Source: Albimonas pacifica
GTDB taxonomy: Bacteria; Pseudomonadota; Alphaproteobacteria; Rhodobacterales; Rhodobacteraceae
Direction: 5' to 3'
Assembly (NCBI RefSeq): GCF_900113695.1
Contig: NZ_FOQH01000005.1
Location: forward strand, 62,001-126,000
Length of the DNA: 64,000 nt
Position numbers and translations under genes: made by a program. This document shows, piece by piece, positions 1,515 to 36,230 of this stretch (position 1 is the stretch's first letter; each line of letters begins with the position of its first letter). The notes beneath the pieces are model-generated. The model was not told the DNA's origin and did no database searches. It worked only from the letters and a program-made list of their open reading frames with translations.

Positions 1515-2126
1515 CCGCCCTCCCGCCGCGGCGCGCCCCCGCCCGCCGCCGGCCCCGCGGCTGCCCCATGCGCCCCCGGGAGCGCCTGTTCTCCGGAGCC
1601 GTCTCTCGCGGATGCCGATCAGAGCGACTCGTCCCGGCCGGTCAAGGATCGCGAAGCGACCGCGCCTGCGCGGCTCGTCCTTGACCGGCCGGGGCGAGTC
1701 GCTCAGGCATCCATCGGCGAGAGACGGCTCCGGGGAACAGGCGCGGGCGCATTGTTCTTGGGTGAGTCAGGAGCCTGCCGGAGGCTCCCCCGCCAGCCCG
1801 TCCCTCGTCGCTTCTCCCCCCACGCGACGCAGCCAAGCCCGCCCGCAGGGCGCCTGTAGTCCGCCCGCCCCGCCAGGGGCGGTCTTGCCCGCTTGGGTCC
1901 GGGGGGCTCGACGTTCCCGGCGCCCCGGGTCGCAGGCGCCTTGCTGCCATGCAGCATCTGCAAGGCGGGACTGCGTGCGGATGCGAAATCGTCGCGTGCG
2001 GCGGCCGGCGCGGGCGGGCAGGATGGGGGCGAACGGCGGGGCCGGGGCGCGAGTCGCCTGGGCCCCGCCGCATCCGTTTCCGCGGCGCCGCCCCCCGCTT
2101 CGCGCCGCAAGCCGAAAGGTCCGGTC
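1515..2126. other. 612-bp intergenic region holding palindromic element copy A
   Basis: No convincing gene. Reading frames here are Arg/Pro/Gly-rich by-products of GC content. It holds copy A of the large palindromic element (1581-1770) and its GC-rich extension to about 1853. A small CGCCCC/GGGGCG hairpin follows at 1866-1881. The last bases contain AAAGG (2115-2119), the probable ribosome binding site of the MFS gene. Confidence 0.7.
1581..1770 (-). repeat. Large covarying palindromic element, copy A
   Basis: One of four related elements; this one is inverted relative to the other three. In element orientation it has: ACTCACC near the left end; outer arms GCGCCTGTTC / GAACAGGCGC; the inner stem GAGCGACTCG / CGAGTCGCTC; a variable segment CCCCGGCC facing GGCCGGGA; GGTCAAGGA facing TCCTTGACC; and two mini-hairpins at the apex, CCGCGC-AG-GCGCGG and TCGC-TTC-GCGA. 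The outer arm CCGTCTCTCGC pairs with GCGAGAGACGG, whereas copies B and D have CCGTCCGTCGC with GCGACGGACGG. A further GC-rich tail containing GGCGCCCTGCGGGCGGGC (also in copy C) extends to about 1853. No protein is encoded. Confidence 0.88.
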
Positions 2127-3320
2127 TTGTCCTCCCCTGCGACCGTCGCGCGCGGCGGGCTCGTGATGCTGGCGCTCGCTCTCGGCGGGTTCTCCATCGG
2201 CGTCGCCGAGTTCGCCTCGATGAGCCTCGTGCCCTTCTTCTCCGCCGAGTTCGGCATCGCCGAGACCCAGGCCGGCCACGCCATCTCGGCCTATGCGCTG
2301 GGCGTGTGCGTCGGCGCCCCCGTCCTGACCGTGATGGCCGCGCGCATCGCGCGGCGCACGATCCTGGTGGGGCTGATGGCGCTCTTCGCGCTTGCCAACG
2401 GCGCCTCGGGCCTGGTCGAGGGCTACCCGGCCTTCGTCGCCTCGCGCTTCGTCGCGGGCCTGCCGCACGGGGCCTACCTGGGCGCGGCGGCGCTGATGGC
2501 GGCCTCGATGGTCGCGCCCAACCGCCGGGGGCAGGCGGTGGCGCGGGTGCTGCTGGGGCTGGCCATCGCCACCATCGTGGGCGTGCCGCTCGCCAACGCG
2601 CTCGGGCAGGGCTTCGGCTGGCGCTGGGCCTTCGCCATGGTGGCGGGGCTGGCGGCGGCGTCGGCCGGGCTGCTGACCTGGCTCGCGCCCGAGCAGCGCC
2701 CGGACGCGGGCGCGAGCCCGCTGCGCGAGCTGGGCGCGCTGCGCAGACGGCAGGTCTGGCTGACGCTGGGCATGGGGGCGATCGGCTTCGCGGGGATGTT
2801 CTGCGTCTACACCTACCTCGGCTCGATCGTGATCGAGCATGCGGGCGCCCCGGCCTCCTGGCTGCCGGGGCTGCTGGCGGTGTTCGGGGCGGGGATGACG
2901 GCGGGCTCGATGGCCGGGGGCTGGGCGGCGGACCGGGCGATGACGCCCGCGATCGTGGCGACCATGCTGGCCAGCACCGTCGCGATGCTGATCTTCGCGG
3001 CCGTCGCCGACGACGTGGCGCTGATGATGCCGGCGGTGTTCCTGGTGGGGCTCGGCTGCGCGCTGTCGCCGATCCTGCAGACGCGGCTGATGAACGTGGC
3101 GGGCGACGCGCAGATGCTGGCCGCGGCGCTCAATCACTCCGCCTTCAACGCCGCCAACGCGCTGGGGCCCTGGCTGGGCGGGCTGGCGCTGGCGGCGGGC
3201 TACGGCTGGGCCTCGGTCGGCGTGGTGGGCGCGGCGCTCTCGGCCGGGGGGCTCGTGTTCGTGGCGCTGGCGGTCCTCGACGAGGCCTCGCGCCGGCGCT
3301 GGCAGGGCCGGGTGGCCTAG
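2127..3320 (+). CDS. MFS transporter, AraJ/YdhP-like
   Basis: Inner-membrane major facilitator of about 12 transmembrane helices, probably a proton-driven exporter; the substrate is unknown. The N-terminal half runs from GGFSIGVAEFASM through the GLPHGAYLGAAALMA helix, typical of AraJ/sugar-efflux-type carriers. The 397-residue product assumes a TTG start at 2127, chosen because AAAGG sits seven bases upstream and the protein then starts just before helix 1; an ATG at 2166 is the alternative. The gene converges on xylB and their stop codons overlap by four bases (3317-3320). There is no regulator nearby to suggest the substrate. Confidence 0.85.
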   Translation: MSSPATVARGGLVMLALALGGFSIGVAEFASMSLVPFFSAEFGIAETQAGHAISAYALGVCVGAPVLTVMAARIARRTILVGLMALFALANGASGLVEGYPAFVASRFVAGLPHGAYLGAAALMAASMVAPNRRGQAVARVLLGLAIATIVGVPLANALGQGFGWRWAFAMVAGLAAASAGLLTWLAPEQRPDAGASPLRELGALRRRQVWLTLGMGAIGFAGMFCVYTYLGSIVIEHAGAPASWLPGLLAVFGAGMTAGSMAGGWAADRAMTPAIVATMLASTVAMLIFAAVADDVALMMPAVFLVGLGCALSPILQTRLMNVAGDAQMLAAALNHSAFNAANALGPWLGGLALAAGYGWASVGVVGAALSAGGLVFVALAVLDEASRRRWQGRVA

Positions 3321-4786
3321 GCTTCCAGCGCGCCCGCGATCGCGGGGTGCAGGGCGCGGAAGCGTCCGCGCCGCTCGGCCATGCGGGCGACGAGCGCGGG
3401 CTCGGGGGCGATGACCTCCGCCGGCTCGGGGGGCGCGCAGACCGCGGTCGCCTCGGCGCCGGTCGCGGCGCAGAGGCCGAGGCGCGCGGCGCCCAGCGCC
3501 GCCCCGAAGTCGCCCGCGGGCGGCAGGGTCAGGGGGCGATCGAGCGCCGCGGCCACGATCCTGAGCCACAGGCGCGAGCGGGCGCCCCCGCCCACGGCCC
3601 AGGCGCTTTCGAAATCGGTGCCCGCCGCGCCCAGCGCCGCCTGGCAGTCGGCGAAGGCCAGGGCCACGCCCTCGAGCACCGCCCGCGTCAGATCCGCCCG
3701 GGACGACGCCCGGGCCAGTCCCGCGAAGGCCCCGCGGGCGGCGGGGTCGTTGTGGGGCGTGCGCTCGCCGGAGAGGTAGGGGAGGAACAGCGCCTCGCTC
3801 GGCGCGGCCCCGGACGTGTCGGCGGCCTCGGCCTCGGCGATCAGGTCCGCGGCGGGGGTCGCCGTGATCGCGGACAGCCACTCCAGCGCGTCGGCGGCGG
3901 CGAGGATCACGCCCATCTGGTGCCACAGGCCCGGGGCCGCGTGGCAGAAGGCGTGGACCGCGCCGGCGGTGTTGGGGCGGAAGGCGTCGCCCGCGACGAA
4001 CAGCACGCCCGAGGTGCCCAGCGACACGAACGCGGTCCCCGGCGCGAGCGCCCCCACCCCGCAGGCCGCGGCGGCGTTGTCGCCGCCCCCGCCGGCCACC
4101 ACCGGCGCCCCGGTCATGCCCCAGCGGGCGCGGAGCTCGGGGCGCAGGCGGCCCGAGACCTCGGACCCCTCGACCAGCGCCGGCATGTGGGAGCGGTCGA
4201 GCCCGGTCGCCCCCAGCAGGTCGTCCGACCAGTCGCGGGCGGCCACGTCCAGCCACAGCGTGCCGGAGGCGTCGGACATGTCCGAGACCGCCTCGCCGGT
4301 CAGCGCCAGGCGCACGTAGTCCTTGGGCAGCAGGATGCGCCGGGTCGCCTCGAACAGCCCGGGCTCCTCCCGCGCCAGCCAGGCGGCCTTGGGCGCGGTG
4401 AAGCCCGGCATCACCAGGTTGCCGCCGATGCCGCGGAAGTCGGCGGCCGCGTCCAGCGCCGCGCAGTCGGGGGCCGAGCGCATGTCGTTCCACAGGATCG
4501 CGGGGCGCAGCGGCCGGTCGTCGGCCCCCAGGAACGTGGCCCCGTGCATCTGGCCCGACAGGCCGATGCCCTCGACCGCCGCCATCCCGGCGGGATGGTC
4601 CGCGGCCAGCGCGTCGAGCGCGGCCCAGCAGGCGTCGATCCAGTCCTGCGGCGCCTGCTCGGACCACCCCGGCGCGGGGCGCGAGACCGCCAGCGGCGCG
4701 GAGCGCGAGGCGATCACCGCTCCGTCCGCGTCCATCAGCGCCGCCTTCGCCGAAGAGGTGCCGAGGTCGAGGCCGAGGTAGGTCAT
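3317..4786 (-). CDS. xylB: Xylulokinase (FGGY family)
   Basis: Phosphorylates D-xylulose to xylulose-5-phosphate for the pentose phosphate pathway. The 489-residue protein matches the family length. It has the N-terminal phosphate-binding GLDLGTSSAK (residues 5-14), the sugar-site motif SGQMHG (77-82), the catalytic aspartate D236 in AGGGGDNAAAACG, and SLGTSG (255-260) of the second ATPase half. The ATG at 4786 has GGAG just upstream. No xylose isomerase or xylose transporter is adjacent, so this is an isolated kinase gene. Another FGGY sugar specificity cannot be excluded, but the SGQMHG motif favours xylulose. Confidence 0.9.
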   Translation of the reverse strand: MTYLGLDLGTSSAKAALMDADGAVIASRSAPLAVSRPAPGWSEQAPQDWIDACWAALDALAADHPAGMAAVEGIGLSGQMHGATFLGADDRPLRPAILWNDMRSAPDCAALDAAADFRGIGGNLVMPGFTAPKAAWLAREEPGLFEATRRILLPKDYVRLALTGEAVSDMSDASGTLWLDVAARDWSDDLLGATGLDRSHMPALVEGSEVSGRLRPELRARWGMTGAPVVAGGGGDNAAAACGVGALAPGTAFVSLGTSGVLFVAGDAFRPNTAGAVHAFCHAAPGLWHQMGVILAAADALEWLSAITATPAADLIAEAEAADTSGAAPSEALFLPYLSGERTPHNDPAARGAFAGLARASSRADLTRAVLEGVALAFADCQAALGAAGTDFESAWAVGGGARSRLWLRIVAAALDRPLTLPPAGDFGAALGAARLGLCAATGAEATAVCAPPEPAEVIAPEPALVARMAERRGRFRALHPAIAGALEA

Positions 4787-4983
4787 CGCAGGGTCTCCGG
4801 AGGGGGCGTGAAACGCGGGGGCCCTTCCCATCCCCCGGGCGGGGAGGCGAGGTCAAGGCCGCGCGCGGCCCAGGGCCCCCGCGGCCGCGCGGGCATGGAC
4901 CTGCGCGCCGGCTCGTGCCACCCTGTGCGGGTCGCGCGACGCGGCCGGGGAGCAGCGCTCCGGGCAGGTCACGGGAGAGGCCC

Positions 4984-5292
4984 ATGAGCGGGACCGCCGA
5001 CTCCGATCTCGAAGCGAAGGTCAAACCCAAGGCGCAGCGTCCGCGGCTTTGGAAGGTGATCCTGCTCAACGACGACTTCACCCCGCGCGAATTCGTCACC
5101 GCCGTGCTCAAGAGCGTGTTCCGCCTGACCGAGGACCAGGCCTGGCGGGTGATGATCACGGCCCACCAGAAGGGCGTCTGCGTGGTCGCCGTCTACACCC
5201 GCGAGGTCGCCGAGACCAAGGCCGCCGACGCCAACGAGGCCGGCCGCGCCAACGGCTTCCCCCTGCGCTTCACCACCGAACCCGAGGACTGA
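4984..5292 (+). CDS. clpS: ATP-dependent Clp protease adaptor ClpS
   Basis: Adaptor that binds the ClpA N-domain and delivers N-degron substrates. The 102-residue product has the ClpS core from residue 22. NDD (29-31), the TPREFV stretch and H61 form the pocket that recognises the substrate's N-terminal residue. The GGGAGAGG ribosome binding site lies directly before the ATG. clpA is not adjacent. The last codons, Pro-Glu-Asp-stop, are the first unit of a 12-bp tandem repeat that continues past the stop. High confidence from core motifs. Confidence 0.96.
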   Translation: MSGTADSDLEAKVKPKAQRPRLWKVILLNDDFTPREFVTAVLKSVFRLTEDQAWRVMITAHQKGVCVVAVYTREVAETKAADANEAGRANGFPLRFTTEPED

Positions 5293-5328
5293 CCCGAGGA
5301 CTGACCCGAGGACCGGCCCGAGGACTGA
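5281..5328 (+). repeat. Four 12-bp direct repeats across the clpS stop
   Basis: Four consecutive units at 5281, 5293, 5305 and 5317. Units 1, 2 and 4 read CCCGAGGACTGA and unit 3 ends in CCGG. The first unit encodes the last three residues and the stop of ClpS, so the array gives in-frame tandem stop codons with one readable unit between them. Confidence 0.9.
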
Positions 5329-5373
5329 GGCGCCGCGGCGCCGGGGCCCCCGCAGGGGCGACCGCGCGCCCGG

Positions 5374-6324
5374 TCAGGACACCTGCTCGCCGACCCCGCG
5401 CCGGGGGGGCAGGGGATTCGGCGGGCGGCCCTGGGGCGTGCGGGCCGCGGGCTTCGCAGGGGCCTGGCGCGCCCGCTCGCGCGCGGGCAGGCGGGCGGGG
5501 ACGTCGGTCATCTCGTCGACGATGCGGCGCACGATGGGGGCGGCCTCGGCCTCGGTCATCCCCGGCTGGAGGCGCGGGTCGTAGAGGATCCGCAAGAGGT
5601 CCGCGTCATGCTCGGTCATGAAGGCGAACTCCTCGTCGTCGTTGAAGATCGAGGGCCGCACGGTCGCGTCGTCGTTGGGCAGGCCCAGCGCCTGCACCAC
5701 CTCCTCGTCGAGGCAGGAGTCGCGCAGCAGGTCGGGCAGCTCGTCGCGGATCCCGATCATCGCGGCCGTGTTCCAGCGCCCGTCGCCGCCCCGGTAGGTG
5801 GTGGCGTAGCAGACCACCCAGAGCTGCGAGGCCCAGGCGTCGAACATCTGGAGCTGCGCGTCCGAATAGCGCGTCCCCAGCGCCGCGCGCATCCGCGGGC
5901 GCGAGTCGGGGCCGAGGTACATGATCGTCATGCGTGCGGTCTCGCCCGTCCCGGCCTCGCGCACCTCGAGGCCCGTCGCCTGGGCGATCCGGGCGCCCAG
6001 CGTCTCCATCCGGGCGCGGTCCGAGGGGCGGACCTCGCCCAGCATCCGCCAGGTGAGGTCGCCGCGCCACTTCGACAGCGGGCGCTCGTCGAGGATGTCG
6101 CCGGCGTCGGGAAACTCGGTGCGGAAGGCGATCAGGCGGAAGTTCCGCTCCAGGTCGCGGCGGTCGTAGGGGGCGTCTGCGGGGGCGATGTCGGTGCGCA
6201 GCCAGCCCTTGGCCAGCAGCGAGGCCTGCATCTCGGCGAAATGACGCTCCGGATCGGGCTGCGCGCAGCCCGCCGCCAGCAGCGCCAGCCCCCCGAGCGC
6301 CCCCCGGCGCAGCCCGCGCCTCAT
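5374..6324 (-). CDS. DUF2927 family lipoprotein (second of a tandem pair)
   Basis: Predicted lipoprotein of unknown function. The 316-residue product begins with a basic n-region, a hydrophobic stretch and a lipobox ending at C20 (LLAAGC). The body matches the Rhodobacterales DUF2927 type, with the hallmark RPSIFNDDEEFA and an RILYDPRLQPGM segment. It overlaps the upstream paralogue by four bases (ATGA, 6321-6324), so the two are surely co-transcribed. The Pro/Arg-rich C-terminus after about residue 280 is not shared. No enzymatic motif is recognisable. Confidence 0.85.
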   Translation of the reverse strand: MRRGLRRGALGGLALLAAGCAQPDPERHFAEMQASLLAKGWLRTDIAPADAPYDRRDLERNFRLIAFRTEFPDAGDILDERPLSKWRGDLTWRMLGEVRPSDRARMETLGARIAQATGLEVREAGTGETARMTIMYLGPDSRPRMRAALGTRYSDAQLQMFDAWASQLWVVCYATTYRGGDGRWNTAAMIGIRDELPDLLRDSCLDEEVVQALGLPNDDATVRPSIFNDDEEFAFMTEHDADLLRILYDPRLQPGMTEAEAAPIVRRIVDEMTDVPARLPARERARQAPAKPAARTPQGRPPNPLPPRRGVGEQVS

Positions 6325-7253
6325 CCCGAGGCCCCGGCCCGCGCGGCGGCCAGCGGCGAGAGGCCGTCGAGGCGGGGCCCGGGGCCGATCTCGTCGACGA
6401 TCTCGCGCACGATGGGCATGCCGACCTCGGCGGTCATGCCCGCCCGCAGCCGCGGATCGTAGAGGATCCGCAGCAGCAGCTCGTCATGTCGGGTCAGGAG
6501 GGCGAACTCCTGGTCGTCGTTGAAGATCGAGGGCCGGGCGTCGCCGTCGTCGTTGAGCAGGCCCATGGTCTGGGCCAGCTCCTCGTGGATGCAGCTCTGG
6601 CGCAGGACGCCCCTGGTCTCGGACTTGATGACGATGGTGGCCTTGTTGCGCCACTTGCCCCCCTCGCGCGTGCGGCCGACCTGGCCGACGCAGGGATAGA
6701 GGTCGTTGCGCGCCCATTCGCGCATCAGCGGCATCCGCGCGCCGGAGCCGTCCGCGTCGATCTTCTCGACGAAGGCCGCGCGCAGCGCCGGGGTGGCGAT
6801 CATGATCAGGATGTCGGGGTCGACGTCGGTCTCGATGAAGTCGAGGCCGGTGAGCCGCGACAGCCGGCCCGTGTAGCCGCGGTAGTCGTCGAAATCGCGC
6901 GGGGTCGCCCCGTCGCCGGTGAGCTGCCAGCGCACCGGCCCGTCCCATTTGACCAGGGAGACGGGGGTGGATTTCTGCACCAGCCGCTCGCCGTCCTCGA
7001 ACTCCATGTGGAAGGCGATGCGCTCGAAGTCGCGGGCGAGGTCGGCGTTGGTGAAGGGCGCGTCGGCGGGATCGTACTCGGTGCGCATCAGGCCGGCGGC
7101 GGCGTAGCGCTCCAGCGCCTGCGAATAGAGCTGTTCGGTGGTGAAGGCGCAGCCGGAGGCCAGCGCCGCGGCGGCCAGCGCGCCGAGCGCCGCCAGACGG
7201 CGGCGGGCGGAGAGGAGGGGGGCGACACCGGGGATGGCGGCAAGTCGCGGCAT
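6321..7253 (-). CDS. DUF2927 family lipoprotein (first of a tandem pair)
   Basis: Paralogue of the next gene, 310 residues, with a lipobox ending at C35 (ALASGC) after an unusually long n-region. It shares RPSIFNDDQEFA, the RILYDPRLRAGM segment and the early DPADAPFTNADLARDFERIAF block, which parallels PADAPYDRRDLERNFRLIAF in the neighbour. The pair therefore arose by duplication. It is the first gene of the two-gene unit, with a 479-bp gap upstream. The function is unknown. Confidence 0.85.
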   Translation of the reverse strand: MPRLAAIPGVAPLLSARRRLAALGALAAAALASGCAFTTEQLYSQALERYAAAGLMRTEYDPADAPFTNADLARDFERIAFHMEFEDGERLVQKSTPVSLVKWDGPVRWQLTGDGATPRDFDDYRGYTGRLSRLTGLDFIETDVDPDILIMIATPALRAAFVEKIDADGSGARMPLMREWARNDLYPCVGQVGRTREGGKWRNKATIVIKSETRGVLRQSCIHEELAQTMGLLNDDGDARPSIFNDDQEFALLTRHDELLLRILYDPRLRAGMTAEVGMPIVREIVDEIGPGPRLDGLSPLAAARAGASG

Positions 7254-7732
7254 GCGCTCGGCTCCTTCTGCGTCGGGCGTTCGCGACGAGGACTTGGTTC
7301 GTTCTAACGCGGCCCGCCGCCCGCCGCCATGCCGCGAAGCCGCGCATCACGCGCCGGCGAGGGGGCGCGGCAGGGCCGCTACAGGCGCCGCAGGGGCAGC
7401 CCGCGGCCGGCCCGGGACCGGGCGACGGAGGGCGCCGCCGGGCAGGGCGCGGGTCACGGGCGGGGGCGCGTCGGCGGCGGCCCGAGCGACGGGCGCACGG
7501 GCGGGCCGGGGCGGGGCCCCGGCGCATCGAGCCTCGCCGCGACCGGATCTGCGCCGAAGGCGCCGGCGGGGCCTGGCCTGCGCCGAAGGCGCCGCGCGCG
7601 GCGCGGGCTTCGCCGGGCGACGGAGCCGGCTCCGCCGTCGCGCAGCCCCTGGGCCGAGCCGGTCCGCCTGCGCGCGGCCCCGGGACGCAGGCGGCGCTTG
7701 CCCGGGGCGGCTGGGGCGTTAGGCTCGCCGCC
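7254..7732. other. 479-bp GC-rich intergenic region with short repeats
   Basis: Divergent spacer between the DUF2927 pair and the ChaN-like gene. I see no supported gene. It contains two exact copies of CTGCGCCGAAGGCGCCG (7549-7565 and 7578-7594, 29 bp apart). Each holds a GCGCC-GAA-GGCGC triloop palindrome, resembling the unit of the tandem array at 57156. The less GC-rich stretch around 7270-7310 is the likely promoter region of the DUF2927 operon. Confidence 0.6.
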
Positions 7733-8728
7733 ATGCACAGCTCGCTCCCTTCCCCCGACCTCGCCCCTGTCCCGCGCCCCGCGCGCCTGCGCCCGGCGGG
7801 CGCGCTGCGCAGGCTCCTCGCGGCGGGGGCGCTGGCGCTGGCGGCGGGCTGCGCCTCCGGCGGCGCGCCGGATGCGGGGCTGCCGGAGGGCGCGCGGCTG
7901 GTCGAGCTGCCCTCGGGCCGACCGCTCGACGGCCTGCCGGCGCTGGTCGAGCGGGCGCGCGGCGTCGACCTGCTGGTGGTCGGCGAGATCCACGACGACC
8001 CGGCCCACCAGCGCCTCCAGGCCGCGCTGGCCGCGGCGCTGGGGGTCGAGGCGCTGGCGCTGGAGATGGTCCCGCAGGAGGTCGAGCCTGCGCTGGCCGC
8101 GCTGCGGGCGGCCGGGAGCCCCGACGCGGAGCTGCGCGCCGCCGCGCGATGGGACGACTACGCCCCCTGGCACGGCGTGCTCGACGCGGTCCCCCGGGCG
8201 GAGGTCGCCGGCGGCGGCGTCCCGCGCGCGGCGCTGCGCCAGGCGATGGGCGAGGGCGTCGCCGCGGCCTTCGGCGAGGGGGCGGCGCGCTACGGGCTCG
8301 ACGCCCCGCTCCCCCCCGCGGAACAGGCGGCGCTGGAGGTGGAGCTCGACCGCTCGCACTGCGGGGCGCTGCCGGCGGAGATGCTGGCCCCGATGGTCGA
8401 GGCCCAGCGCCTGCGCGACGCCCGCTTCGCCGAGGCGCTGCTGCGCGTGCGCGAGCGGGCCGGCGGGGCGCAGGCGATGCTGGTCACCGGCAACGGCCAT
8501 GCCCGCCGCGACCGCGGCGTGCCCTGGGTGCTGGCGGACGCGGCGCCCGGGCTCTCCACCCTCGCGATCCTCCAGGCGGAGTGGGCGCAGGACGCGCCCG
8601 GCGACGTCGACGCGGCCCTGGCGCCGTGGCGGCGGGCGGACGGAAGCCTGCCCTACGACCTCGCCGTGATCTCGACCGCCCCGACGGGGCGCGAGGATCC
8701 CTGCGCCCGGTTCCGCAGCCAGGGGTGA
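7733..8728 (+). CDS. ChaN-like lipoprotein (haem/iron-uptake family)
   Basis: Predicted lipoprotein of 331 residues with a lipobox ending at C40 (LALAAGC). It carries the signatures of the ChaN/DUF399 fold: VVGEIHDDPAHQ (residues 83-94), a central RSHCG, and the C-terminal TGNGHARRDRGVPW. ChaN of Campylobacter binds haem and is implicated in iron uptake; transfer of that role here is inference. No TonB receptor or Fur-type site is visible nearby, so the gene appears to stand alone. A downstream start closer to the lipobox is possible, because the n-region of about 25 residues is long. Confidence 0.8.
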   Translation: MHSSLPSPDLAPVPRPARLRPAGALRRLLAAGALALAAGCASGGAPDAGLPEGARLVELPSGRPLDGLPALVERARGVDLLVVGEIHDDPAHQRLQAALAAALGVEALALEMVPQEVEPALAALRAAGSPDAELRAAARWDDYAPWHGVLDAVPRAEVAGGGVPRAALRQAMGEGVAAAFGEGAARYGLDAPLPPAEQAALEVELDRSHCGALPAEMLAPMVEAQRLRDARFAEALLRVRERAGGAQAMLVTGNGHARRDRGVPWVLADAAPGLSTLAILQAEWAQDAPGDVDAALAPWRRADGSLPYDLAVISTAPTGREDPCARFRSQG

Positions 8729-8767
8729 GGGCCGGCCTGCGCGGGACCGGGGGCGGGAGGACGGGGA

Positions 8768-25411: not shown

Positions 25412-25468
25412 CCGCGGGCCGGGGCGGGCGCCGCGCCCCCCTCGCGCGTCGCGCGGGGGGCGGCCGGG

Positions 25469-27405: not shown

Positions 27406-27420
27406 GCCCGCGCGCCGCCG

Positions 27421-29013: not shown

Positions 29014-29256
29014 TTCGGGGTCTCCTCGCGCGGCCGGATGCGGTCGGGTCGGCGCGCCTTCGCGCCTACCTATGGGGCGGGAGCGGAACCCGCAAGGCGG
29101 CGGCCGGGCGCGGCGACGGAGAGCGCCCCCTCTCGCCCGCCCCGCGCGGACGGCGGGGGCGGGAGCGGCCCCGGGTCGGGCCCGGGGCGCCTGCGCGGGC
29201 AAGGGAGCGTCGGAGCGCCCGCAGCGCGCGCGCCAGGGCGCCGGGGCGGCGCAGGC

Positions 29257-30039
29257 TCAGAGGTCGAGCTCGATCCAGACGGGGGCGTGGTCGGAAGGCT
29301 TGTCGCCGCCGCGCGCCCAGGCGTCGACCTCGGCGCCCTTCAGACGGTCGGCGGCCTGGGGGGTCAGCAGCAGGTGGTCGATGCGGATGCCGTCGTTCTT
29401 CTGCCAGGCGCCGGCCTGGTAGTCCCAGAACGTGTAGACCTCGGGCCCGGGGCGGTGGATGCGCAGCGCGTCGGTCCAGCCCTGATTGAGGATCCGGCGG
29501 TAGGCGGCCCGGGTCCGCGGCAGGAACAGCGCGTCCTCGGTCCAGGCCTGCGGGCGGGCGGCGTCCTCGGGCTGGGGGATGACGTTGTAATCGCCCGCCA
29601 GCACCGCGATCTCCTCCGAGGCGATCAACTCCGCCGCGCGCGCCTCCAGCCGCTCCATCCAGGCGAGCTTGTAGTCGTATTTCGGCCCCGGAGCGGGGTT
29701 GCCGTTGGGCAGGTAGAGGCCGCAGACGCGCACCGCGCCCTTGTCGGCCGAGATCGTGGCCTCGATGTAGCGGGCCTGTTCGTCGCTCTCGTCGCCGGGC
29801 AGGCCGCGCATCACGTCCTCGATCGGGCGGCGCGCGAGGATCGCGACGCCGTTGAAGCCCTTCTGGCCGTGGGTCTCGAGGTTCCAGCCGGCGTCCTCGA
29901 TGGGCTCGCGCGGGAAGGTCTCGTCGACGGACTTGATCTCCTGCAGGCAGACTACGTCGGGTTTCGCCCGGTCGAGCCATTCCAGCAGGGCGGGGAGGCG
30001 GGCCTTCACGCCGTTGATGTTGAAGGTGGCGATCTTCAT
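29257..30039 (-). CDS. xthA: Exodeoxyribonuclease III
   Basis: AP endonuclease/3'-5' exonuclease of base-excision repair, 260 residues. Motifs are TFNINGVKARL (5-15), the metal ligand E34 in CLQEIK, LYLPNG, AGDYNV, the substrate-binding HPG-like DGIRIDHLL segment and the C-terminal GGDKPSDHAPVW. The ATG at 30039 starts with the family sequence MKIATFNING. Palindromic element copy B begins 79 bp upstream. Confidence 0.95.
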   Translation of the reverse strand: MKIATFNINGVKARLPALLEWLDRAKPDVVCLQEIKSVDETFPREPIEDAGWNLETHGQKGFNGVAILARRPIEDVMRGLPGDESDEQARYIEATISADKGAVRVCGLYLPNGNPAPGPKYDYKLAWMERLEARAAELIASEEIAVLAGDYNVIPQPEDAARPQAWTEDALFLPRTRAAYRRILNQGWTDALRIHRPGPEVYTFWDYQAGAWQKNDGIRIDHLLLTPQAADRLKGAEVDAWARGGDKPSDHAPVWIELDL

Positions 30040-30117
30040 CGGCGGGGGTCTCCTGGCCTCTGGCGGGGGCCTCGCGAGGCGGGGCTCGCTCAGGCGTTGC
30101 GCTGCGCGCGGGGGCGC

Positions 30118-30305
30118 TTCTGAACTCACCCGGGAACAGGGCCGCGCCTGTTCCCCGGATCCGTCCGTCGCTGAAGATGCCTGAGCGACTCGGCCCCGGG
30201 GGTCAAGGACAAGCCGGCTTCGCCGGTCGCTTCGCGATCCCTGACCCCCGGGGCCGAGTCGCTCTGATCGGCATCAGCGACGGACGGCTCCGGGGAACAG
30301 GCGCT
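30118..30305 (+). repeat. Large covarying palindromic element, copy B
   Basis: Lies between recQ and xthA. From left: TTCTGAACTCACC; a 9-bp-stem hairpin GGGAACAGG/CCTGTTCCC; outer arms GCGCCTGTTCCCCGGA / TCCGGGGAACAGGCGC; GTCCGTCGCTGA / TCAGCGACGGAC; inner stem GAGCGACTCG (30183-30192) with CGAGTCGCTC (30255-30264); variable segment GCCCCGGG with CCCGGGGC (perfectly complementary); GGTCAAGGA with TCCCTGACC. At the apex are CCGGC-TTC-GCCGG (30214-30226) and TCGC-TTC-GCGA (30227-30237). Confidence 0.9.
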
Positions 30306-30345
30306 TCGCGAGGGGCGGGTTCCGGGGCGCCGGGGGCGGGCGGGA

Positions 30346-32460
30346 TCAGGCCTCGGCGGCCGCGGCGAGGATGGAGAGGAAGGCGGGGCCGAAGCGCTCG
30401 GCGCGCTGGGGGCCCATGCCGGGGACCTCGGCGAGGGCCTCGAGGCTGTCGGGACGGCGCTCGACCACCTTGGAGAGGGTGGAGTTGGTGCAGGTCAGCA
30501 GCTTGTCCGTGCCCTGCGCCCCGCGCGCGAGGCGCAGCTGGGCGGCGTGGAGCGCGTCGAAGACCTCGCCCGTGCCGGCGGCGGCGGCGCGGATCCGGGT
30601 CGGGTGCGCCTCGGGAGCGGGCGCGCCGGTGAGGACCTCCAGGAACTCGGCGCCGTAGCGGGCGAGCTTCGCCGCGCCGACGCCGTGGCAGGTGGCGAGC
30701 TCGTCCATGGTCCGCGGCTTCTTCGTGGCCATGTCGATCAGGGAGCGGTCGTTGAAGACGATGTAGGCGGGGGCGTTCTGGGCCTCGGCCAGGCGCCGGC
30801 GCAGGGACTTGAGGGCGGCGAGCAGGGGCTCGTCCGCCTCGTCCACCAGGGCGGCGGGGGCGGGGCGGCGGTCGTCCTTCGCGGCGCCGCGGGCCTTGAG
30901 CGCGTCCTTGCGCAGCTGCAGGCCCTTCTCGCCGCGCAGCACCGGGCGGGCGTCCTCGGTCAGCCGCCAGCCGCCGGTCTGCCCGTCGACGGCGGCGAGC
31001 CCCAGCGCCAGCAGCTGGCGCAGGATCGCGCGCCAGGCGTTGCGGTCGAACTCCTTGCCGATGCCGAAGACCGAGAGGCGGTCGTGGCCCAGCCGCTCGC
31101 CCCGCTCGTTGGGTTTGCCGAGCAGGACGTCGACGACATGCTCGACCCCGAAGCGCTCGCCGGTGCGGTAGATGGCCGAGAGGGCCTTCTGGGCGGCCAC
31201 GGCGCCGTCGAAGAGCTCGGGCGGCTTGCGGCAGAGGTCGCAGTTGCCGCAGGGCTGCGGGCGCGCCTCGCCGAAATAGGCGAGCAGGGTCTGGCGGCGG
31301 CAGCCGGGCGCCTCGGCCAGCGCGAGCAGGGCGTTGAGGCGCTGGTGGTCGGCGCGCTTGCGCTCCTCCGGCGCCTGGCTCTCGTCGATCTGCAGGCGGC
31401 GGAGCTTGATGTCCTCGACCCCGTAGAGGGTGAAGGTGTCGGCGGGGGCGCCGTCGCGGCCCGCGCGCCCGATCTCCTGGTAGTAGGACTCGACCGACTT
31501 GGGCAGGTCGGCGTGGGCCACGAAGCGGATGTCGGGCTTGTCCACGCCCATGCCGAAGGCGACGGTGGCGCAGATCACCATGCCGTCCTCGCGGGAGAAG
31601 CGGTCCTGGGTGTGGGAGCGCGTCTCGGCGTCGAGGCCGGCGTGGTAGGGCAGGGCGTCGAGCCCCTCGGCGCGCAGCGCGGTCGCCAGCACCTCGCACT
31701 TGTTGCGGCTGCCCGCATAGACGATGCCCGAGCGGCCCTTGCGGGGCAGGACGAAGTCCATCAGCTGCTTGCGCGGCGAGGCCTTGGCCTCGAAGGCGAG
31801 GTAGAGGTTGGGACGGTCGAAGCCGCGCAGGAACACGGCGGGGGCGGCGGGGTCCTCGCCCCCCCCGCCGACGTCGTCCGTCAGGGGGGCGTCGTCGTGG
31901 TCGAAGAGGCGGCGCAGGATCTCGGCGCGGGTCTCCTCGTCGGCGGTGGCGGTGAAGGCGGCGGTCTGGACGTTGCCGAGCGCGGCGCGCAGCTCGCCGA
32001 TGCGAAGGTAATCGGGGCGGAAGTCGTGGCCCCACTGGGAGACGCAATGCGCCTCGTCGATCGCCAGCAGCGAGATCGGCAGGCGGGCGAGGAGCTGGCG
32101 GGAGGAGGCGAGGCGCTCGGGCGCGAGGTAGAGGAGCTTCAGGGCGCCGCGGTCGATCGCCTCGAAGATGCGCTCGTTGTCCTGAGGCGTGTTGGCGGAG
32201 GTGAGGGCGCCGGCCTCGACGCCGGCCTCGCGCAGGCCAGCCACCTGGTCGCGCATCAGGGCGATGAGGGGGGAGACGACCAGCGTCACGCCCTCCCGCG
32301 CCAGGGCGGGGAGCTGGTAGCACAGCGACTTGCCGCCGCCGGTGGGCATGATCGCCAGGACGTTCCGGCCGGCCTCGATGGCGGAGACGATCTCCTCCTG
32401 GCCGGGGCGGAAGGCGTCGAAGCCGAAGACGGATTTCAGGAGCGTCTCAGGGGTGGGCAT
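30346..32460 (-). CDS. recQ: ATP-dependent DNA helicase RecQ
   Basis: 3'-5' helicase of recombination and fork repair, 704 residues. Motif I MPTGGGKSLCYQL (39-50), motif II DEAH (135-138), the RecQ-specific helix SQWGHDFRPDY, motif VI YYQEIGRAGRDG and a zinc site in GCRRQTLLAYFG...CGNCDLC are all present. A winged-helix region follows. A C-terminal HRDC-like domain contains VFNDRSLIDMA and the last HhH-like segment VPGMGPQRAERFG. An ATG at 32460 starts the protein. It is bracketed by element copies B and C in the same orientation, outside any operon. Confidence 0.95.
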   Translation of the reverse strand: MPTPETLLKSVFGFDAFRPGQEEIVSAIEAGRNVLAIMPTGGGKSLCYQLPALAREGVTLVVSPLIALMRDQVAGLREAGVEAGALTSANTPQDNERIFEAIDRGALKLLYLAPERLASSRQLLARLPISLLAIDEAHCVSQWGHDFRPDYLRIGELRAALGNVQTAAFTATADEETRAEILRRLFDHDDAPLTDDVGGGGEDPAAPAVFLRGFDRPNLYLAFEAKASPRKQLMDFVLPRKGRSGIVYAGSRNKCEVLATALRAEGLDALPYHAGLDAETRSHTQDRFSREDGMVICATVAFGMGVDKPDIRFVAHADLPKSVESYYQEIGRAGRDGAPADTFTLYGVEDIKLRRLQIDESQAPEERKRADHQRLNALLALAEAPGCRRQTLLAYFGEARPQPCGNCDLCRKPPELFDGAVAAQKALSAIYRTGERFGVEHVVDVLLGKPNERGERLGHDRLSVFGIGKEFDRNAWRAILRQLLALGLAAVDGQTGGWRLTEDARPVLRGEKGLQLRKDALKARGAAKDDRRPAPAALVDEADEPLLAALKSLRRRLAEAQNAPAYIVFNDRSLIDMATKKPRTMDELATCHGVGAAKLARYGAEFLEVLTGAPAPEAHPTRIRAAAAGTGEVFDALHAAQLRLARGAQGTDKLLTCTNSTLSKVVERRPDSLEALAEVPGMGPQRAERFGPAFLSILAAAAEA

Positions 32461-32630
32461 GGGATCGGGCGCGGGCCTGGATGCTGCTGCGTGGGGTCGG
32501 GGGGCAGAGTATCGGGGCCGACGCGCGAAGGCGAGAGGGGGAGGGGCGGGTCTGCAGGGACGCAGGCGCCCTGCGGGCGGGCTTGGCCTGCGCGCGCTTC
32601 GCGCGCGGCGGGCTGGCGCCCGCGGGGCGC

Positions 32631-32822
32631 TTCTGGAACTCACCAGAGAACAAGCCGCGCCTGGTCTCCGGATCCGTCCATCGCTTCTGGCCGGCCTGAG
32701 CGACTCGCCCCCGCCGGTCAAGGACAAGCCGCGCTGCGCGCGGTCGCTTCGCGATCCTTGACCGGCGGGGGCGAGTCGCTCCGTTGGCCGCCAGCGACGG
32801 ACGGCTCCGGAGAACAGGCGCT
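32631..32822 (+). repeat. Large covarying palindromic element, copy C
   Basis: Lies between erpA and recQ, in the same orientation as copy B. The variable stem is CCCCCGCC with GGCGGGGG (perfectly complementary); GGTCAAGGA pairs fully with TCCTTGACC. The apex hairpins are CCGCGC-TGC-GCGCGG and TCGC-TTC-GCGA. A GC-rich left extension from about 32566 includes GGCGCCCTGCGGGCGGGC, shared with copy A. The outer arm has one mismatch (CATCG against CGACGG). Confidence 0.9.
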
Positions 32823-32860
32823 CCCGGAGGGCTCGTGGCGGGCGGCGGCGGGCCGCGCGC

Positions 32861-33232
32861 TTACATCGAGAAGGAGACGCCGCAGCCGCAGGAGCTGGAG
32901 GCGTTGGGGTTCTCCACCGCGAAACGGGCGCCGATCAGCTCGTCGGTGAAGTCGATCACCGAGTCGGAGAGGTAGGGGAGCGAGACCGGGTCGACCAGGA
33001 TCTTCTGGCCGTCCTTCTCGAGCACCAGGTCGTCCTCGGCGGGCGCGTCCTCGAGCGTGATCTCGTACTGGAAGCCGGAGCAGCCGCCGCCTTCCACCGC
33101 GACCCGCAGGCATTGCGGGCGGCCGGCGTCGTCGGCGATCTCGGCCAGGCGCGCGAAGGCGCGGTCGGTCGCGCGGGGCGGGATCGAGATCGCGGGCGTC
33201 GAGAGGTCGAGCGAGAAGTCAGGCGCGGCCAT
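32861..33232 (-). CDS. erpA: A-type iron-sulfur carrier ErpA
   Basis: Small scaffold/carrier that hands [4Fe-4S] or [2Fe-2S] clusters to apoproteins; 123 residues. The three cysteines that define the family are C51 in GGGCSGFQYEITL and C115/C117 in SSCGCGVSF. LPYLSDSVIDFTDELIGARFAVENPNA is the conserved C-terminal block. It is divergent from dgt with a 128-bp intergenic region. In related genomes it usually lies near xthA and dgt, but here recQ is in between. Confidence 0.94.
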   Translation of the reverse strand: MAAPDFSLDLSTPAISIPPRATDRAFARLAEIADDAGRPQCLRVAVEGGGCSGFQYEITLEDAPAEDDLVLEKDGQKILVDPVSLPYLSDSVIDFTDELIGARFAVENPNASSSCGCGVSFSM

Positions 33233-33360
33233 GGCGGTTTTCCCTTCGCGGAGGATGGTGTAGGCCTCGCGCCATCATCTAGGCGGAGGCGGGGGGGACG
33301 CAAGAGGCGTCGCGGCCGCCGACGCCCCCGACCCCGCATTCCAGAGCCGGGAGCGCCCCG

Positions 33361-34530
33361 ATGCCCGCGTCCTACGCCTGCCTGCCCGCCGCCTCGCGCG
33401 GGCGCCTGCACGCCGAGCCGGAATCCGCCCACCGCACGCCCTTCCAGCGCGACCGCGACCGGATCATCCACTCCTCGGCCTTCCGCAGGCTCAAGCACAA
33501 GACCCAGGTCTTCGTGGAGCATGAAGGCGATTACTACCGCACCCGGCTGACTCATTCCATCGAGGTGGCGCAGGTGGCGCGCACGCTGGCGCGCGACCTC
33601 GGCCTGACCGAGGAGCTGGCGGAGGCGGTGGCGCTGGCCCACGACCTGGGCCACACGCCCTTCGGCCACACCGGCGAGGATGCGCTGCACGCCGCCATGA
33701 TCCCCTACGGCGGCTTCGACCACAACGCCCAGGCCCTGCGGATCGTCACCGAGATCGAGGCGCGCTACGCCGAGTTCGACGGGCTGAACCTGACCTGGGA
33801 GACGCTGGAGGGCATCGCCAAGCACAACGGGCCGCTGTGCGAAATGGGCGCGGACACGGGCGAGCTGCACTATGCGCTGGCCGAATACGTCGCCCGCCAC
33901 GACCTGGAGCTGCACACCCACGCCTCGGCCGAGGCGCAGGCGGCGGCGCTGTCGGACGACATCGCCTACAACACCCACGACCTCGACGACGGGCTGCGGG
34001 CGGGGCTGTTCACGGCCGAGGAGATCGCGACCCTGCCGGTGGTGGGCGACTGCTTCGCGGAGGTGGACCGCAGGTATCCCGGCCTCGACCCCGCGCGCCG
34101 CCAGCACGAGGCGTTGCGGCGCGTGTTCGGGGCGCTGGTGGAGGACGTGCTGGAGACCTCGCGCCTGCGGCTGGCGCAGTCCGGGGCCGAGACCGCGGAC
34201 GAGATCCGGGCGCTGGGGCGGCCGGTGATCGCCTTCTCGGACGGGCTGGTCTCGGACCTGCGGCAGGTGCGCGGCTTTCTGTTCGAGCGGATGTATCGCC
34301 ACTGGCGCGTGGCCCGGATGCGGCGCAAGGCGGCGGCGGTGGTGGCGGAGCTGTTCGAGATCTACATGGAGACGCCGCGCGTCCTGCCCGACGACTGGCG
34401 CGATTCCGCGATGCACGCGATGTCCGCGGCGGGGCGGGCGCGGGTGGTGGCCGACTACATCGCGGGCATGACCGACCGCTTCGCCCTGCAGGAGCACCGC
34501 CAGCTCACCGACCCGATGTCGCGCACCTGA
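33361..34530 (+). CDS. dgt: dGTP triphosphohydrolase-like protein (Dgt, HD domain)
   Basis: Hydrolyses dNTPs to deoxynucleoside and triphosphate, controlling nucleotide pools. The 389-residue product has the HD metal site: H65 in TRLTHSIEVAQ, H94-D95 in ALAHDLGHTPFGHTGE, and a distal D in ALSDDIAYNTHDLDDG. RRLKHKTQVF precedes it. It matches the shorter alphaproteobacterial type-2 Dgt rather than the 505-residue E. coli enzyme. It is divergent from erpA. Confidence 0.93.
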   Translation: MPASYACLPAASRGRLHAEPESAHRTPFQRDRDRIIHSSAFRRLKHKTQVFVEHEGDYYRTRLTHSIEVAQVARTLARDLGLTEELAEAVALAHDLGHTPFGHTGEDALHAAMIPYGGFDHNAQALRIVTEIEARYAEFDGLNLTWETLEGIAKHNGPLCEMGADTGELHYALAEYVARHDLELHTHASAEAQAAALSDDIAYNTHDLDDGLRAGLFTAEEIATLPVVGDCFAEVDRRYPGLDPARRQHEALRRVFGALVEDVLETSRLRLAQSGAETADEIRALGRPVIAFSDGLVSDLRQVRGFLFERMYRHWRVARMRRKAAAVVAELFEIYMETPRVLPDDWRDSAMHAMSAAGRARVVADYIAGMTDRFALQEHRQLTDPMSRT

Positions 34531-34597
34531 GGCGCTGGCGGCCGGCGAGGCGCGCCCCCGCTGGGCGGGGGCGCGCGGGGTCGGCTGCGGCGGCGCC

Positions 34598-35449
34598 TCA
34601 GGCGGCGGCGAGCGTCCGGAAGGCGGGGGCCGCGTCCCGCGCCCAGGTCTCGAGGGAGCGGGGGGCGCGGCCGGTCAGGGTCTCGACGTCGGGGGCGACG
34701 GCGGCGGTCCAGCCCGCGCGCACCGGAGCGAAGATCGAGGCGAGGAACGGCGCGTAGTCGGCGGGCAGGCCGGCGGCGATCAGGCCCTCGACGAAGGGCG
34801 CCTCGGGGATGTCGCGGTAGGCGACGGGGCGGCCCAGGGCGCCGGCCAGGATCGCGGCGGCCTCGGCGTAGGTCAGCGCCGCGGGGCCGGTGAGGTTGAA
34901 GGCCCGGCCGTCGAAACGGTCCGTGGTCAGCGCCGCGGCCGCGCTTTCGGCGACGTCGCGCACGTCGATGAAGGACGAGGCGCCCTCGCCCGCCGGAACC
35001 GCGATCTCGCCCGCCAGCACGCCATGACCCCAGTAGTTCAGGAAGTTGTCGGCGAACCAGTTGGGGCGCAGGATCACGAAGGGCGCGCCCGAGCGTTCCA
35101 GCGCCAGCTCGACCTGGCGGTAGGGGATGGTGTCGTCGGCGTCGACCCCGAAGACGCTCTGCATCACCGTCTTCACGCCCCGGGCGGCGGCGAAGTCCAC
35201 CACCGGCAGGAGCATCTGGGTGACCGCCACGTAGCCGCCGGGCAGCATCAGGTGGAGGCGGTCGACCCCCTCGAAGGCGGGGGCGAAGGTCGCGGGGTCG
35301 GCGTGGTCGAAGGCGACGCCCTCGGCCCCCTCGACCGCGCGCCCGTCGCGGGTGGCGGCGCGCACGCGCTCGCCCCTGGCGACGAGGGCGCGGACCAGGG
35401 GGCGGCCGACGGCGCCGCCGGCGCCGAGAACGAGGATCTTGCCGGGCAT
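34598..35449 (-). CDS. NmrA-like NAD(P)-binding oxidoreductase
   Basis: A 283-residue atypical short-chain reductase of the NmrA/QOR2 type. It has the nucleotide-binding GAGGAVG (9-15), no Tyr-x3-Lys catalytic pair, FVILRPNWFADNFLNYWG and a C-terminal NmrA-like segment. It could be a quinone or flavin reductase or a redox sensor. It is divergent from an HxlR regulator, with a 149-bp intergenic region that holds a clear dyad; the pair is a classic HxlR-controlled module. The ATG at 35449 was chosen over the upstream frame because family homology begins there. Confidence 0.85.
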   Translation of the reverse strand: MPGKILVLGAGGAVGRPLVRALVARGERVRAATRDGRAVEGAEGVAFDHADPATFAPAFEGVDRLHLMLPGGYVAVTQMLLPVVDFAAARGVKTVMQSVFGVDADDTIPYRQVELALERSGAPFVILRPNWFADNFLNYWGHGVLAGEIAVPAGEGASSFIDVRDVAESAAAALTTDRFDGRAFNLTGPAALTYAEAAAILAGALGRPVAYRDIPEAPFVEGLIAAGLPADYAPFLASIFAPVRAGWTAAVAPDVETLTGRAPRSLETWARDAAPAFRTLAAA

Positions 35450-35471
35450 TGGGGACCTCCGAAACGATGTG

Positions 35472-35507
35472 GTATCCATTGGAAACCTTGTTTCCATGGG
35501 TTACATA
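35472..35507. promoter_or_regulatory. Candidate HxlR operator
   Basis: A dyad TGGAAAC-CTT-GTTTCCA (35480-35496) is flanked by outer half-sites GTATCC and GGTTAC. It lies between the divergent NmrA-like and HxlR genes and 22 bp upstream of the reductase start. This placement fits autoregulated HxlR control. Confidence 0.6.
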
Positions 35508-35598
35508 GACCGCAGTCGGAAAGCGCGTAAGAAGGCACTTTCCGGTGACGTGGTGACCTCGGGGTGACCGGCCCCGGGGCGGGAGGAGGAGGACGCGG

Positions 35599-35982
35599 AT
35601 GGAGCGGCCCTGGGACGTCTATGCGCAGGCCTGTCCGACGCGGATGGTGCTCGACCGGCTGGCGGACAAGTGGTCGGTGCTGATCCTGGACCGGCTGAAG
35701 CCGGGGCCGGTGCGCTTCAACGGGCTGCGGCGCGACATCGAGGGGATCTCGCAGAAGGTCCTCTCGGCCACGCTGAAGAAGCTGGAGCGCGACGGGCTGG
35801 TGGCGCGCGAGGCCTTCCCGACGGTGCCGGTGACGGTGGAATACTCGCTGACCCCGCTGGGATGCACGCTGACCGAGACGGTCTCGGCGCTGGCCCATTG
35901 GGCCGAGCGCAACATGGAGGCGGTGATCGAGGCGCAGAAGGCTTATGACGCGGCCCTCGGCGAGGCGCGGCACGGAGGGTGA
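35599..35982 (+). CDS. HxlR family transcriptional regulator
   Basis: A 127-residue winged-helix regulator. It contains CPTRMVLDRLADKWSVLILDRL, where C12 is a possible thiol sensor, LRRDIEGISQKVLSATLKKLERDGLV as the recognition-helix region, and PVTVEYSLTPLG as the wing. HxlR proteins respond to aldehydes, disulfides or electrophiles. The divergent oxidoreductase is its likely target. Element copy D follows immediately downstream. Confidence 0.93.
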   Translation: MERPWDVYAQACPTRMVLDRLADKWSVLILDRLKPGPVRFNGLRRDIEGISQKVLSATLKKLERDGLVAREAFPTVPVTVEYSLTPLGCTLTETVSALAHWAERNMEAVIEAQKAYDAALGEARHGG

Positions 35983-36040
35983 CGGGGCCCGGAGGCGCCC
36001 TGCGGGCGGCCTGCGCGCCTGCGGCGCGCGCGGGGGCCGC

Positions 36041-36230
36041 TTCTGAACTCACCCAAGAACAGGCCCGCGCCTCTTCTCCGCAGCCGTCCGTCGCTGAAGA
36101 TGCCTGAGCGAGTCGTCCGGAGCGGTCAAGGACGAGCCGCGCGGAGCGCGGTCGCTGCGCGATCCTTGACCGCTCCGGCCGACTCGCTCTGATCGGCATC
36201 AGCGACGGACGGCTCCGGAGAACAGGCGCT
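36041..36230 (+). repeat. Large covarying palindromic element, copy D
   Basis: Lies between the HxlR gene and argS, in the same orientation as copies B and C. The inner stem changed on both sides: GAGCGAGTCG with CGACTCGCTC, where the other copies have GAGCGACTCG with CGAGTCGCTC. The variable segment is TCCGGAGC with GCTCCGGC (7 of 8 paired). The apex hairpins are CCGCGC-GGA-GCGCGG and TCGC-TGC-GCGA. A GC-rich left extension from about 35993 includes GGCGCCCTGCGGGCGG. Confidence 0.9.

Follow-up and report, generated by a model that had tools for sequence, protein, structure and literature searches.

How can a palindrome of about 190 bp keep its two arms matched when its sequence differs from copy to copy? 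The question is raised by a stretch of 64,000 nucleotides of Albimonas pacifica (contig NZ_FOQH01000005.1, positions 62,001 to 126,000, or G000:C36:62001-126000 in our numbering; the window in what follows), in which a preliminary description made from the sequence alone had recognised four such elements, copies A to D, with compensatory changes in their stems. We followed the family through the genome that holds the window (G000; 6.02 Mb, 68 contigs), its sister species (G001), G002, which is placed in the same genus, and a family of 394 genomes (f1) that we take, by inference from the names attached to argS matches, to be the Rhodobacteraceae; the nearest named argS is that of Oceanicella actignis (81% identity), and the other matches retained carry names from that family or its relatives. 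We give an even chance to the reading that these elements are structured, RNA-like repeats at gene ends, constrained by their fold and homogenised by exchange between copies.

The four copies lie where they had been placed, both on reading the sequence and by cmsearch (1581-1773 on the minus strand; 30118-30305, 32632-32822 and 36041-36230 on the plus strand; E 5.7e-34 or lower, with a covariance model built partly from these four copies). The 8-base segments and their facing arms also read as described, with 7 of 8 positions paired in copies A and D and all 8 in B and C; the mismatch in copy A is C.A, that is, G.U when the other strand is read. The GACTC/GAGTC stem swap in copy D and the two-sided outer change in copy A (CCGTCTCTCGC/GCGAGAGACGG) were confirmed as well. 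A family of four copies, as first proposed, is far too small, since at least 127 matches to an exact core pattern, TCAAGGACNAGCC...ATCCTTGA, occur across G000. The same pattern, which overlooks diverged cores, has 24 matches in G001, one or two in each of 14 other genomes and none in 378 of the 394 family genomes, and its reversed control has none. A first search of the whole of G000 returned 219 candidates, and all 40 that were scored matched. From 2.06 Mb of stretches and loci L001-L060 we collected 89 distinct G000 copies, of which 87 are near full length and two, left out of later counts, are partial. One contiguous 700 kb of contig C37 holds 17 copies, or ~146 when scaled to the genome; the other stretches include some that were chosen for known copies. 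We treat 127 as a floor and estimate 150-200 copies. The 34 copies collected from G001 are the best-scoring loci plus a syntenic stretch and are not a random sample. Elsewhere in the family, where covariance-model counts are lower bounds (10 or 84 candidates scored per genome), full-length relatives were found, from 10 scored candidates per genome, at 9 places in G241 and as 7 matches at 6 places in G022 (one of them seen in both directions); G020 and G199 have one weaker match of the full-length type each. Phage and plasmid collections searched with copy D gave no match.

The first boundaries hold for the ~190-bp palindrome; the full conserved unit is larger, reaching ~100 bp further 5' and ~45 bp further 3'. 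It consists of a near-perfect palindrome within a mosaic of 300-340 bp which, in the orientation of the preliminary description, runs from a distal module (AGGCGCCCTGCGGGCGGGCYTGG) through a spacer and the palindrome to a G-rich tail of ~45 bp; the end of the spacer defines two types (GCTTCTGAACTCACC, type I; GGAGCCTCCGGCGGGCTCCTGACTCACC, type II). By RNA folding the palindrome forms one long hairpin, modelled with 67 base pairs, with small hairpins at its tip, and a short terminal stem accompanies it. The distal module also occurs alone, at 19 places away from the element in the 2.06 Mb, always between predicted genes (called here by a custom codon-model script, not a published gene finder), and the element is therefore composed of two or more repeat modules of intergenic DNA, joined as a mosaic. 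These solitary modules, reading GGCGCCCTGCGGGCGGGC, lie on contigs C37, C35, C31 and C32 of G000.

The fold is conserved well beyond chance. Copy D has RNA folding z-scores of -12.0 on the plus and -10.6 on the minus strand, and none of 200 shuffles folds as well. Covariation was assessed in 37 copies (33 from G000, 4 from G001) on the model's own structure, which was derived from the same copies and is thereby favoured: 98.2% of 2476 stem cells hold standard pairs (90.7% when shuffled), 156 cells have changes on both sides (45.8 shuffled) and the covariation score is 0.176 (0.050 shuffled), none of which was reached in 500 shuffles. The number of further pair types did not exceed that of shuffles (27 vs 26.5). 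When partners were slid against each other by 1-3 columns, pairing fell to 35-47%. The left arm of the variable stem takes 38 different 8-base forms among the 87 G000 copies; pairing is fully Watson-Crick at the 8 positions in 68 of these, while 15 copies have one failed pair, 3 have two and 1 has three. The arms do not vary independently, covariation in the 37 copies being far above that of shuffles, and the family shows the covariation expected of a structured RNA. The view that the fold is kept while the sequence diverges holds in the 87 copies and at 19 of 19 orthologous loci.

These loci come from the comparison with the sister species. Over a syntenic stretch of 80 kb in G001, the positions of copies A, B and C are occupied by an element too, and the gap orthologous to that of copy D holds none; all four G001 copies of this stretch have a G000 counterpart, which for the fourth lies to the left of the window. 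Between copy B and its orthologue, the hairpin enclosed by the arms is identical over ~48 bases, and the 8-bp stem differs on both sides and is still largely paired. Across the collected copies, 19 of 34 from G001 match one of the 87 from G000 on both flanks (3 of 22 flank matches were one-sided and were left out); the remaining 15 carry little information, because only part of the G000 copies was compared. The 8-bp stem differs in all 19 orthologue pairs. Among its 152 pair cells, 78 are changed on both sides and paired, 59 are the same, 9 are changed on one side and 6 on both sides without pairing, compared with 52, 930, 18 and 1, respectively, among the 1001 cells of the other stem (cells with gaps left out). 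Orthologous elements are 73-90% identical. Of the identities of the nearest flanks, 29 of 38 fall between 44 and 69% and two exceed 90%, with the 5' flanks including part of the unit.

Shared position does not make the variable parts alike. Variable-stem identity is 0.452 between orthologues and 0.432 between random cross-species pairs (permutation p = 0.27), against 0.580 and 0.666 within the two genomes. Orthologues are slightly closer in the framework (0.879 vs 0.864, p = 0.003), a signal seen in its outer portions. At two unpaired columns (162 and 164) the two species are near-fixed for different letters (17/19 vs 18/19 and 17/19 vs 16/19), a pattern that could hardly arise from independent drift at 19 loci. 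The family is homogenised within each genome, its variable parts being closer among a genome's own copies than between orthologues.

Inner modules are shuffled between copies, and arms and loops occur in many combinations. In the 61 of 66 copies that could be parsed, left and right arms are strongly associated (r = 0.864), as are outer partners ~130 nt apart (r = 0.717), whereas the arms are nearly independent of the apical hairpin they enclose (r = 0.048 and 0.013) and also of the outer partners (r = 0.050-0.068, nominal p 0.015-0.042). The distal 5' module shows association with the outer partners (0.153 and 0.203) and none with the arms or the apical loop. The 13 copies that share the left arm CCCCCTCC have 12 different combinations of apical hairpin and outer type (4 of 87 G000 and 1 of 34 G001 copies left out of this tally). 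Association between modules thus tracks base pairing, not distance. We tentatively regard the copies, at somewhat less than even confidence, as a natural combinatorial library in which nested modules are exchanged between copies and replaced at fixed loci as matched pairs, with linkage set by pairing. Homogenisation and linkage together call for short-tract exchange between copies plus something that keeps the partners matched.

One candidate for the latter is template switching within an element (quasi-palindrome correction), which copies one arm from the other and had been proposed as an alternative in the preliminary description. Perfect matching of the variable stem in 68 of 87 copies is what it would produce. 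However, an asymmetric internal loop between the stems CGTCGC and GAGCG persists throughout: its left and right sides are equal in 0 of 81 G000 and 0 of 33 G001 copies (6 of 87 and 1 of 34 were not parsed). Copying within the hairpin should erase this asymmetry, and we consider template switching very improbable.

Mismatches, loops and folding stability bear on which strand is folded. Stem mismatches in the orientation of the preliminary description are A.C in 40 cases and G.T in 6 (121 copies, counted without the apical region; pairs 104-122 and 110-115 were dropped from a separate wobble count for loop misalignment). Since A.C mismatches become G.U wobbles on the opposite strand, the latter is favoured. 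On that strand, apical loops read C[GNA]G in 50 copies, CUUG in 24 and otherwise in 11, with 2 not parsed (n=87), and the second mini-hairpin reads CGC[GAA] in 46 and CGC[GCA] in 38 of 87. As RNA, the opposite strand is also the more stable one in 120 of 121 copies, and DNA folding parameters give the same preference. These signs favour, with moderate confidence, an RNA or single DNA strand of the orientation opposite to that first described; they support the original suggestion of a structured RNA or single-stranded DNA, and wobbles, loops and folding energy all favour one of the two strands.

Matched arms could also arise without fold selection, by gene conversion centred on the palindrome: the hairpin or cruciform would be cut close to the tip, both ends resected outward and the gap refilled from another copy, which would exchange the two arms at once and leave them matched. 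Long palindromes are break sites (SbcCD), which suits this mechanism, as do the sharing of arms and loops in many combinations and an orthology signal that is undetectable in the centre (apical hairpin and arms, p = 0.27 each) and kept outside it (p = 0.005 and 0.012). However, the near absence of linkage between arms and loop makes whole-centre replacement insufficient by itself, an origin of new matched arms is still needed, and SbcD-like matches numbered just two, both below the curated cut-off (63.4 and 50.4 vs 77.65 bits). Conversion also predicts no strand polarity, and both loops and mismatches are polar. Fold selection is favoured because this polarity points to a single-stranded functional form, and because the retained asymmetric loop shows that the fold is not driven to symmetry. 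We judge conversion without fold selection to be unlikely; the chief alternative is palindrome-centred break repair, which may operate alongside selection.

Under fold selection combined with exchange, what is selected would be one strand in its folded state. This would most likely be an RNA of the orientation opposite to that first described, forming a long hairpin ending in two small hairpins with GNA or CUUG loops. To judge from its place near gene ends, such a hairpin would limit read-through or protect the mRNA end. Short gene-conversion tracts between copies would spread stem and loop modules through the genome, and exchanges or mutations that leave an arm unpaired would be lost, so that linkage would follow base pairing. 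Of the preliminary interpretation, the upkeep of the fold and the RNA or single-stranded DNA nature are supported; template switching is not, and the high copy number, the shuffling of modules and the larger unit had been missed.

The genomic setting bears on the proposed role. Among the 66 copies in the stretches, none of which overlaps a predicted gene by >60 bp, 65 have both neighbours (one lies at a stretch edge and is left out), in 42 tandem, 20 convergent and 3 divergent gaps, compared with 440, 105 and 235 of the 780 element-free gaps of >=100 bp. Read on the favoured strand, 44 of 65 copies follow a co-directional gene. The distance to the facing stop codon starts from 34 nt on one side and is at least 58 nt in 37 of 38 cases on the other; since the conserved flanks are of nearly this length, the gap is often filled by the unit. 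Sites resembling intrinsic terminators, by our own script, were found in 0 of 20 convergent gaps with an element and 23 of 105 without (p = 0.023). The element hairpin is not followed by a clean T run; a short hairpin on the favoured strand, followed by GTTCTTGGGTGA, is present in 41 of 70 parsed copies of the 87; the long hairpin's base and the arm of this short one compete for pairing.

Several observations weigh against an RNA acting at gene ends. Orientation in tandem gaps is near even (24 vs 18), with no constant direction relative to the genes, which leaves a fixed role in the 3' untranslated region putative. Twenty-one of 65 copies have no co-directional gene upstream on the favoured strand, and when tandem and convergent gaps are pooled, terminator-like sites occur in 2 of 62 vs 58 of 545 (p = 0.07). 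At some copies the gene already has a terminator-like hairpin ahead of the element (C24:139105 and C32:317347, by eye). The wobble excess is partly inherited, falling to 13 vs 3 in G000 and 6 vs 3 in G001 when counted by pairs, and unpaired G000 sites have a per-site excess of G>A over C>T (46 changes at 13 G vs 45 at 25 C) that unpaired G001 sites do not (7 at 17 vs 13 at 23). A related family, A5, has no such polarity (A.C 15 vs G.U 12, own count). GNA loops are stable in DNA too, and single-stranded DNA would give much the same strand signs.

Orientation also correlates with local GC skew, most strongly close by. Replication polarity was rejected as the source of this link, because the flanking sequence is itself rich in C when read on the favoured strand, with 52-55% C and 26-34% G in the 75 nt to each side of the element (60 copies). 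Such C-rich flanks could serve as a Rho loading sequence.

Many intergenic copies and a lineage-specific expansion are also what a mobile, non-autonomous element would show, of the kind of miniature inverted-repeat transposable elements (MITEs) or repetitive extragenic palindromes (REPs), still moving and kept paired by a hairpin-binding transposase. Copy D, present in G000 and absent at the syntenic place in G001, fits such mobility; it is the sole candidate empty site, and its flanks are too diverged to define a target duplication. A RAYT-type (Y1) transposase, which the preliminary description had suggested looking for, was not found in G000 (0 PF01797 matches; control matched in 5 of 14); the searches covered the Y1 and Y2 families only, and that for Y2_Tnp was uninformative, no control having matched. 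The rarity of partial copies, two in 89, and the G000 counterparts of all four G001 copies in the syntenic 80 kb and of 19 of 34 overall also argue against continuing movement, and we regard this explanation as improbable.

A role as DNA linked to CcrM, with methylation sites (GANTC) in the stem acting as in the CIR repeats of Caulobacter, is in our view a very doubtful explanation. It would account for the concentration of GANTC in the elements (163 of the 1826 sites of the 2.06 Mb in 0.6% of the DNA), for the presence of at least two sites in 78 of 87 copies, and for a GACTC/GAGTC swap that preserves GANTC. However, any fixed word of a repeat is enriched in this way (GATC occurs 129 and CTNAG 66 times in the elements), the sites lie in the stem, not the loop, and they are not better conserved than adjacent stem positions. 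Three full-length relatives from G241 and one from G022 lack GANTC, by eye, and the variable stem is left unexplained.

Features of the four window copies and their neighbouring genes (positions in the window)
Feature	Position	Strand	Remarks
Copy A, long palindrome	1581..1770	-	subtype with GGAGCC...GGCTCC 5' module
Copy A variable stem, left arm CCCCGGCC	1687..1694	-	partner 1632-1639
Copy A variable stem, right arm GGCCGGGA	1632..1639	-	pairs 7/8
Copy A 5' module, small hairpin GGGGAGCCTCCGGCAGGCTC	1771..1790	-	
Copy A distal 5' module GGCGCCCTGCGGGCGGGCTTGG	1833..1854	-	
Exo_endo_phos gene	29257-30039	-	neighbour of copy B
Copy B 5' module GCCTCGCGAGGCGGGGCTCGC	30069..30089	+	
Copy B, long palindrome	30118..30305	+	flanked by RecQ-type helicase gene and Exo_endo_phos gene
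Copy B variable stem, left arm GCCCCGGG	30193..30200	+	
Copy B variable stem, right arm CCCGGGGC	30247..30254	+	
RecQ-type helicase gene	30346-32460	-	neighbour of copies B and C
Copy C distal 5' module GGCGCCCTGCGGGCGGGCTTGG	32565..32586	+	
Copy C, long palindrome	32631..32822	+	flanked by Fe-S_biosyn gene and RecQ-type helicase gene
Copy C variable stem, left arm CCCCCGCC	32708..32715	+	
Copy C variable stem, right arm GGCGGGGG	32764..32771	+	
Fe-S_biosyn gene	32861-33232	-	neighbour of copy C
HxlR-type gene	35644-35982	+	neighbour of copy D
Copy D distal 5' module GGCGCCCTGCGGGCGGCC	35994..36011	+	
Copy D, long palindrome	36041..36230	+	flanked by HxlR-type gene and argS
Copy D variable stem, left arm TCCGGAGC	36116..36123	+	
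Copy D variable stem, right arm GCTCCGGC	36172..36179	+	pairs 7/8
argS	36327-38066	+	neighbour of copy D

The element falls within the broad class of palindromic repeats that lie between bacterial genes. Rfam gave 0 matches in the window and, in 10 loci, five that were all below gathering scores; no description of the family was found in a literature search that took in few subscription papers. In line with what had first been supposed, neither source gave a described family with this layout, nor a match to a catalogued REP, MITE or bacterial interspersed mosaic element (BIME). The element also resembles integron attC sites, palindromes between genes that are read from a single strand, vary in one paired part and have conserved asymmetries; unlike them, it has no core boxes or cassette arrays by eye (no integrase search was made), and its copies are dispersed singly.

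Among described repeats, as far as the accessible text of the sources goes, CIR repeats (Chen and Shapiro 2003, via PMC2229807, PMC10969869) are ~110 bp long, with two stem-loops, a linker and GANTC at the loop. Both they and the present family are intergenic, structured alphaproteobacterial repeats containing GANTC, but here the unit measures 300-340 bp, contains one long palindrome and has GANTC within the stem. The layout does not match that of CIR, with two stem-loops and a linker in ~110 bp; the A5 relative, with two hairpins and a linker, is more CIR-like than the long type. MITEs of the ERIC, YPAL and Correia kind resemble the element in being intergenic, ~100-200 bp long and present in many copies with a long RNA stem-loop (PMC2229807). 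They differ in that no TA ends or target duplication are shown here, where flanks have diverged, and neither a matched turnover of the inner stem at fixed loci nor pairing-based linkage is described for them in the accessible text of that source. REPs of the GTAG and CGTC kinds are extragenic palindromes too, but of 20-40 bp, with stems of 8-9 bp in the CGTC kind, which is reported, in the portion of the source at hand, to be common in alphaproteobacteria and to have no dedicated transposase (PMC3733652). The present palindrome of ~190 bp and 67 modelled pairs is far above this unit size, and identity with REPs or BIMEs was rejected on that ground. It also differs from REPs in that no Y1 transposase was found in G000, a point that bears on GTAG REPs only, because CGTC REPs are reported without one.

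The A5 type is a second, shorter element with the core TCAAGGACAAGCC...ATCCTTGA, an additional hairpin and a TTTGCTGAGAGGC motif. In an alignment of 17 sequences from 14 genomes, gathered by likeness to the inner hairpin of the long-type model, 26 of 36 pairs have two-sided changes. Its own model (38 genomes, 84 candidates scored in each) found it in the named genomes Roseibaca domitiana and Oceanicola sp., with a third, weak match in Paradonghicola geojensis. G000 itself has at least one copy (L259:760-884; C35, about 80760), beside a lone GGCGCCC module. In G002, a first DNA search gave a single short match (13 candidates scored), of the short type by eye, and the long-type model had no match in 80 kb of that genome. 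Because of its spread among genomes, the short type may be the older form, and the long type may have expanded in the lineage of G000 and G001.

Lower-copy relatives in other family genomes (L151-L154, L156-L160, L162-L166 and L170-L173, about 1440-1660 in each) combine a TTTGCTGAGAGGC-like motif, a hairpin, a linker and a covarying hairpin with the TCAAGGACAAGCC...ATCCTTGA core. Four of them (L151, L157, L159 and L165) stand directly upstream of a gene whose start resembles, by eye and with no search made, an FAD-binding (GMC-like) oxidoreductase. Short-type copies in G002 and Oceanicola sp. 22II-s10i lie near the same genes as long-type copies of G000; these pairs, L063/L016 and L342/L036, are too few to separate from chance. 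A type-2 copy in G255 (L153) lies upstream of argS, as copy D does. A search of 80 named argS loci gave four matches up to E = 1, and we judge the link to be chance because the best E was 0.02 and copy D is missing in G001.

It has long been debated whether the palindromes between bacterial genes are junk, mobile or functional, and as a rule only their sequence is considered. Shared positions, homogenisation within each species and pairing that outlives sequence turn this here into a direct question, between selection on the fold and recombination. Pairing-based linkage is a clean, testable signal, which could be sought in ERIC, CIR or REP families. If the copies do form the combinatorial library described above, recombination combined with strong selection on the fold, or conversion centred on the palindrome, would be a new mode of concerted repeat evolution.

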